This document shows, piece by piece, positions 23,699-24,715 of a DNA stretch of 40,046 nt. Numbering within the stretch: the first letter of the stretch is position 1; every line of letters begins with the position of its first letter. Made by a program: the position numbers and the translations under genes. Source of the DNA: Pseudomonadota bacterium (GTDB lineage Bacteria > Babelota > Babeliae > Babelales > CAIQNR01); the NCBI GenBank assembly GCA_027487215.1, contig JAIYDZ010000003.1:1-40046 (forward strand), given 5' to 3'. The notes below the pieces were generated by a model, which saw only the letters and a list, made by a program, of their open reading frames with translations, was not told where the DNA came from and ran no database searches.

Positions 23699-24715
23699 AT
23701 GAAACAGATCTCGCTCATTCTCCTTTTTTTTTCAAGCATCCTCAATGCACGCTTTGCAGATGACGCAGTGGTGTTTGCAGGAAATGCAAATAAAGAACTT
23801 GCACAAGAAATAGCACATCATTTGGGAACTGAGCTTGGAGAAGCAAAAGTAGGTCGGTTTAATGATGGTGAAATTAATATTCAACTGCTGACCAACGTTC
23901 GCCAAAAAGATGTTTACATTATTCAATCAATCTGCCCAACTCAAAAATACTCTGTAAACGACATGCTCGTAGAACTTTTTCTATTAATTCGCACTATTAA
24001 ACGCTCATCCGCACGCAGCATTACTGTGGTTATTCCTTATTATGGCTATGCTCGCCAAGACAGAAAAACCACTCCACGCGTTCCGGTTGCTGCTGCAGAC
24101 ATGGCATTCATGATTGAAAGTGCAGGCATTAATCGTGTGCTTACTATTGATCTTCATTGTGGACAAATTCAAGGTTTTTTCAGACATATTCCTGTGGATA
24201 ATTTGTATGCTGCTCCTCTTTTTGCACGCTATTGTTTACATAAATCACTCACTAATATTGTCGTCGTTTCTCCCGATGCTGGCGGCGTAGAACGCGCACA
24301 ACGTTTTCAATCACATCTTCATAACCTAGGAATTGAAGCAAGCTTTGCTCTTATTAGTAAGCAACGCGCGCAGGCTGGTGTTATTGATTCAATGAAACTT
24401 ATTGGGGCCGTTGAAGGATGCACTGCAATTATTGTTGATGATATGTGTGATACGGGTGGTACAATTGTAAAAGCTGCTGAACTTCTTAAAGAACAGGGCG
24501 CTCAAAAAGTGATCGTTGTTATTACTCATCCAGTGTTTTCAAAAAATGCACTCCAAACGGTAGGTAATTCAGTCATTGACCGCATGATTATTACCAACAC
24601 CATTCCACTACGTGGAGAACTTCCTACAAACATCAGCTGCATCTCTGTTGCACCACTACTTGCAGAAGCTATGAAGCGCACCCAAAATGGTGAATCAGTA
24701 TCTGCATTGTTTTAA
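23699..24715 (+). CDS. prs: PRPP synthetase with an N-terminal signal peptide
   Basis: This 338-residue protein is a ribose-phosphate pyrophosphokinase, which makes PRPP from ribose 5-phosphate and ATP. Catalytic elements are intact: FAGNA at 26-30, RFNDGE at 53-58, RQDRK at 119-123, DLHCGQIQGFF at 151-161, the flexible-loop K-Q-R at 221-223 and PRPP loop VDDMCDTGGT at 246-255. Unlike usual Prs (about 315 residues, starting just before FAGNA), it opens with a hydrophobic signal-like segment MKQISLILLFFSSILNARFA. AAGGA precedes this ATG, and the only nearer alternatives are GTG codons at Val24 and Val25 without a ribosome-binding site. Export is therefore likely but unproven. A terminator follows. 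Confidence 0.92.
   Translation: MKQISLILLFFSSILNARFADDAVVFAGNANKELAQEIAHHLGTELGEAKVGRFNDGEINIQLLTNVRQKDVYIIQSICPTQKYSVNDMLVELFLLIRTIKRSSARSITVVIPYYGYARQDRKTTPRVPVAAADMAFMIESAGINRVLTIDLHCGQIQGFFRHIPVDNLYAAPLFARYCLHKSLTNIVVVSPDAGGVERAQRFQSHLHNLGIEASFALISKQRAQAGVIDSMKLIGAVEGCTAIIVDDMCDTGGTIVKAAELLKEQGAQKVIVVITHPVFSKNALQTVGNSVIDRMIITNTIPLRGELPTNISCISVAPLLAEAMKRTQNGESVSALF

Follow-up and report, generated by a model that had tools for sequence, protein, structure and literature searches.

PRPP synthetase (Prs) is normally a cytoplasmic enzyme that starts nucleotide synthesis. Purine, pyrimidine and NAD synthesis all depend on its product PRPP as their shared, committed precursor, which as a rule arises only within cells. 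The prs gene analyzed here raises the question of why such an enzyme would begin with what resembles a signal peptide and, if it is exported, of what use PRPP would be beyond the inner membrane. The gene lies in a stretch of DNA of 40,046 nucleotides (the window), which is an entire contig of a 995-kb genome (G000, 94% complete) from the same order as Chromulinavorax (Dependentiae). The features of the window that bear on the question are collected in Table 1.

Table 1. Features at and around the prs gene of the window.
Feature	Position	Strand	Remarks
prs, putatively exported PRPP synthetase	23699..24715	+	338 aa; N terminus MKQISLILLFFSSILNARFADDAVVFAGNAN
Predicted signal peptide, residues 1-20 MKQISLILLFFSSILNARFA	23699..23758	+	Heuristic score 10.0
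Ribosome-binding site AAGGA	23684..23688	+	10 nt 5' of the ATG of the leadered form; read directly
GTG codons, Val24 and Val25	23768..23773	+	Alternative starts at the domain start
Flexible-loop Lys221 and Arg223 (KxR)	24359..24367	+	Invariant in 8 Dependentiae; aligned with E. coli KxR
Ribose-5-phosphate/PRPP loop DDMCDTGGT	24437..24463	+	Motif; also aligned with E. coli Prs
Intrinsic terminator-like hairpin 3' of prs	24743..24772	+	11-bp stem, 6 G-C pairs
P-loop kinase-like ORF	21240..21941	+	N-terminal hydrophobic segment; FAM17
ORF resembling MgtE-type Mg2+ transporter	25970..27328	-	Assigned by eye; FAM18

Identity of the enzyme and its locus

Over its full length, the window protein matches the profiles NF002320 (386.7 bits, cut-off 297) and TIGR01251 (347.7 bits, cut-off 113), and it contains the Pfam domains Pribosyltran_N and Pribosyl_synth. 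The top PDB match is E. coli Prs (4S2U, 299.6 bits), which aligns from residue 20 to the C terminus, and the fold family and the catalytic motifs are common to the E. coli enzyme and the whole mature window Prs. The window Prs differs from it in the predicted signal peptide, in its membership of a separate clade and in small insertions near residues 80-84 and 208-213. The RQDRK/DLH motifs, the KxR loop, in which Lys221 and Arg223 presumably have the catalytic role described for B. subtilis Prs, and the DDxxDTGGT loop are all intact, and the catalytic and PRPP-loop motifs are also kept among the closest relatives. The statement in the first-pass annotation that all catalytic motifs of Prs are present is borne out by the intact motifs and by profile scores above the cut-offs, and the protein appears, from its sequence, to be an intact class I PRPP synthetase.

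A search of the window genome (995 kb, 94% complete) revealed no second prs, which answers the earlier suggestion to look there for a leaderless copy. The P-loop kinase-like ORF occurs near prs both in the window and in the same-family genome G001, and a homologue of the MgtE-like ORF flanks prs in G001 on the opposite side, which indicates that the locus is native and syntenic. A contaminant contig was ruled out because prs lies in a block common to the window and G001. The hairpin downstream of prs can be read as a U-run terminator on either strand, and the listing gives the minus strand.

The predicted signal peptide and its base rate

The N-terminal extension of approximately 20 residues had been interpreted as a signal peptide, with a ribosome-binding site placed for the leadered start, and both observations hold: the extension obtains a score of 10.0 with a home-made heuristic (threshold 7) and is conserved across the clade described below, and AAGGA lies 10 nt from the ATG. 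The features of a substrate of the Sec pathway and signal peptidase I are present, namely a basic n-region (K2), a hydrophobic core and small residues at -3 and -1 (ISLILLFFSSIL), and cleavage is predicted to occur after Ala17 or Ala20, immediately ahead of the Prs domain. The leaderless Prs-like proteins to which the same heuristic was applied obtain no score, and 11 of 764 internal segments of the window proteome, used as a control, score at least 7.

Of the 851 proteins predicted in the window genome, however, 362 reach the threshold of 7, with membrane proteins counted too, and in Chromulinavorax 44% of the proteins have signal sequences (PMC6561590). Because signal peptides are frequent in such genomes, a leader on a single gene is weak evidence, and the high base rate therefore makes conservation the real test. 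A chance hydrophobic start was ruled out by the conservation of the leader across the clade.

A single clade in three phyla

In a tree of the mature domains, the window Prs belongs to a clade of 32 sequences from Dependentiae (8), Chlamydiota (22) and Francisellales (2) with a support of 100/100 (bootstrap/SH-aLRT); a quick tree of the mature domain alone gives the same clade (SH-aLRT 100). Among all collected loci, a leader score of at least 7 is obtained by 30 of the 32 clade members versus 1 of 130 other Prs. Clade member L003 falls just below the threshold (6.9); in L258 a hydrophobic stretch is preserved, but no in-frame start codon lies upstream. The mean pairwise identity is 14% for the leaders and 65% for the mature domains, and the conserved element is therefore the property of being a leader. 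Relatives lacking the extension had been named beforehand as evidence against export; the extension is present in all 8 clade Dependentiae and in all but one, L258, of the members from Chlamydiota and Francisellales (23 of 24). Purine-rich sites resembling AAGGA precede most of the leader starts in the relatives.

Clade Prs occur in 8 of 101 Dependentiae genomes, spread over five families; the same-order genome G032 has no member of the clade and only a distant Prs-like gene. In a scan of GTDB, the best non-Dependentiae sequences among the matches listed came from one MAG of Chlamydiae, at 55% identity, and one of Francisellaceae, at 51%; both sequences are leadered, whereas the ordinary bacterial Prs inspected are leaderless. 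Further searches of 234 Chlamydiota and 11 Francisellales genomes yielded approximately 20 more members, and among the GTDB matches listed the clade is seen only in Dependentiae, Chlamydiota and Francisellales. Most of the genomes compared appear to be MAGs. The window Prs groups apart from the leaderless Prs of related genomes, and two genomes, G101 (Chlamydiota) and G102 (Francisellales), carry a second, leaderless Prs beside the exported one; the leaderless Prs of G102 and of other Chlamydiota branch outside the exported-Prs clade. The mixture of three phyla within one clade indicates horizontal transfer between intracellular lineages. The ATP/ADP translocases of Dependentiae and Chlamydiae also formed a common clade in an earlier study (PMC10579323).

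Three broader origins were rejected. Export is not a trait of all Prs, since only 1 of the 130 others is clearly leadered. It is not a general gammaproteobacterial trait, as the matches outside G102 in 369 sampled genomes reach at most 395 bits versus 479 bits for the exported copy of G102. A viral source was also dismissed: among the viral contigs scanned, no homologue found shares more than 48% identity with the query, and the ones inspected carry no leader.

Several other Prs sequences were noted along the way. The leadered sequence outside the clade, L281 (Chlamydiota, G148:C55:3521-4462), has its own signal peptide (MFGRVCLILCVFVSGMLYA) and lies inside the leaderless chlamydial clade, which apparently reflects an independent gain of export; a second Prs copy is present in the same genome. 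L357 (Chlamydiota, G217:C1:806-1822) is a second leadered Prs paralogue in which motifs have changed (SPDxGG to SPDIED and DDxCDTGGT to DDICYTADT) and is possibly non-catalytic. A distant leaderless Prs-like family (L006-L027, approximately 24-33% identity) is widespread among Dependentiae, in some cases alongside the exported Prs, and no member was found in the window genome.

Putatively exported PRPP-using partners in relatives

Ten representative proteins were assigned to families with NCBIfam and Pfam, and the other partner calls were made by eye. The ten comprise eight leadered partner enzymes or fusions, one Prs fusion and one leaderless NrtR-like regulator. In the Francisellales genome G343, a leadered APRT lies directly upstream of the exported prs, the product of which is itself fused to a C-terminal PF01931 (YjjX-type NTPase) domain. 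A leader-YjjX-APRT fusion is located one gene from prs in the Dependentiae G039 and G065 and away from prs in the Chlamydiota G217. Among other Dependentiae, G026 has a leadered HPRT and a leadered OPRT 8 kb from prs, and G088 has leadered HPRT and OPRT. In Chlamydiota, leadered HPRT is found in G101, G215, G217, G219, G225, G239, G244 and G284, leadered UPRT in G215, G219, G223, G244 and G284, leadered OPRT in G239 and G241, and leadered APRT in G215. The earlier proposal that PRPP could serve host or parasite nucleotide salvage fits these leadered phosphoribosyltransferases, several of which are encoded beside prs or occur in fusions. Two genes from prs, G088 also encodes a full-length GMP synthase (GuaA, 761 bits) that begins with a signal peptide (L090:7086-8666, + strand).

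The co-occurrence of partners is not universal, because no leadered phosphoribosyltransferase was found in the window genome, G001 or G020. In Chlamydiota, exported HPRT is more widespread than exported Prs, and a strict coupling of the two is not established. Leadered HPRT or xanthine/guanine-type phosphoribosyltransferases also occur in Dependentiae without exported Prs (L376, L378, L382, L393 and L406), and a leadered HPRT in such a setting would imply the use of host PRPP.

PRPP users and nucleotide transporters

In the window genome, the only PF00156 proteins are Prs and an ordinary ComF, and searches for PncB, NadC, HisG, UPRT, APRT, HPRT, OPRT and GMP synthase gave no convincing match (94% completeness). 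An asparaginyl-tRNA synthetase query used as a control was found. The PRPP therefore has no recognized user inside the window bacterium, as far as a genome of this completeness can tell. TLC transporters are present in all 15 of the exported-Prs genomes tested versus 0 of 14 controls. The window genome carries a tandem array of four ORFs for TLC-type nucleotide transporters (G000:C4:56477-61695).

A proposed role outside the cytoplasm

The enzyme identity, the conserved leader, the single clade, the exported partners and the transporters are supported by the sequences. The most probable interpretation, in which we have good though not full confidence, is that the window Prs is a Sec-exported, competent class I enzyme from a clade that spread horizontally across three phyla, and that it serves PRPP salvage outside the cytoplasm. 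Secretion, compartment, catalytic activity, substrate supply and benefit to the parasite are what we infer in the following scheme. Prs would cross the inner membrane by the Sec pathway, and PRPP would be made outside that membrane from host ATP and ribose-5-phosphate, either in the host cytosol or in a host-permeable periplasm. In the relatives, exported APRT, HPRT, OPRT and UPRT may turn PRPP and nucleobases or orotate into nucleoside monophosphates; in the window organism, which has no recognizable PRPP user, host enzymes would consume the PRPP. The parasite would then take up nucleotides via TLC-type transporters.

On balance, we also favor a wider form of this proposal: the three phyla would share, through horizontal transfer, a set for exported salvage (Prs, phosphoribosyltransferases, a YjjX-like NTPase and, in one genome, GMP synthase) that works on host substrates, with recovery of the nucleotides by TLC transporters, and the window Prs alone would drive nucleotide synthesis by the host. 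Several points count against the main interpretation, namely that Prs forms large oligomers for which there is no recognized outer-membrane route, that leaders are frequent in these genomes, that the clade occurs in only 8 of 101 Dependentiae genomes, that exported partners are missing from some clade genomes and that exported HPRT also occurs without exported Prs.

Within the export model, Prs may stay in the periplasm and receive host ATP and ribose-5-phosphate via outer-membrane pores, such that the salvage products arise beside the inner-membrane TLC transporters. Sec export would suffice for this arrangement, the leaders look cleavable, the fusions would hold the salvage enzymes together, and the transporters are found in every one of the 15 genomes tested. 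However, the window genome has no recognizable PRPP user, so PRPP would need to exit the periplasm in any case, and the exported HPRT of some genomes without exported Prs would need host PRPP; we regard the periplasmic site as a real possibility that falls somewhat short of an even chance. In two Dependentiae (G039 and G065) and two Chlamydiota (G180 and G217), prs is immediately preceded by the gene for an NrtR-like, ADP-ribose-responsive regulator, which suggests a different use of an exported Prs: in place of base salvage, it might supply nicotinamide salvage with PRPP, or be a variant that uses ADP-ribose as in phage NAD reconstitution. This regulator is missing near prs in the window, PncB gave no convincing match in the window genome, and no nicotinamide or nicotinate phosphoribosyltransferase was noticed near prs, whereas the exported enzymes linked to prs handle adenine, orotate and NTPs, which makes a role in NAD chemistry unlikely.

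Other readings of the leader would leave the enzyme in the cytoplasm. One is that the leader anchors the protein in the membrane, or is a localization quirk, and that Prs does its usual work on the cytoplasmic side; this would agree with the window Prs being the only one found in its genome, and leader cleavage is a prediction. However, leaders that are hydrophobic and have a short basic n-region, as in the window Prs (K2), favor movement of the C-terminal domain across the membrane. Other genomes have an additional Prs that is leaderless, and the partner phosphoribosyltransferases are leadered too; together these points make the anchor highly unlikely. Translation from GTG24 or GTG25, which had been named in advance as a finding that would speak against export, would yield a cytoplasmic protein, and the domain start does coincide with two in-frame GTG codons. 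In the window sequence these codons lack an upstream ribosome-binding site, whereas AAGGA precedes the ATG. At the domain border, an in-frame start codon is missing from most clade members, yet the leader property is conserved. The ribosome-binding site and the conservation together rule out such an artifact for practical purposes, and the probability that we leave to it is negligible.

Relation to known systems

Searches of the open-access full-text literature revealed no account of an exported PRPP synthetase or of an exported set of phosphoribosyltransferases. Phage NAD-reconstitution modules use Prs-like enzymes, and the exported Prs proposed here would resemble them in that a pathogen supplies a PRPP-type enzyme that works on the nucleotide pool of its host; however, the phage enzymes act in the host cell where they are made and need no signal peptide, whereas the window Prs is leadered. 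The exported-Prs genomes tested share TLC transporters with the nucleotide parasitism by TLC/NTT proteins known from Chlamydiae, Dependentiae and microsporidia (PMC10579323, PMC5113988, PMC4333871). The known schemes import finished host nucleotides, whereas the parasites with exported Prs also appear to export nucleotide-making enzymes. If this is true, several intracellular lineages build nucleotides in a host-facing space beyond importing finished ones, which would explain the nucleotide supply of genomes with almost no nucleotide synthesis.

In Chromulinavorax destructans, which belongs to the same order as the window genome, nearly half of the proteins have signal sequences, and the secretome passages of that report mention no Prs or phosphoribosyltransferase among the secreted proteins (PMC6561590). 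The exported Prs offers an easily tested family for the role of the very large secretomes of Dependentiae. Inspection by eye also revealed other enzyme-like proteins with signal peptides in the window genome (G000:C5:119160-120227, C3:153104-154228 and C4:194549-198348), which include an HD-domain phosphohydrolase, a PLP desulfhydrase-like enzyme and three family 2 glycosyltransferases, and the export of metabolic enzymes may be general in this genome.
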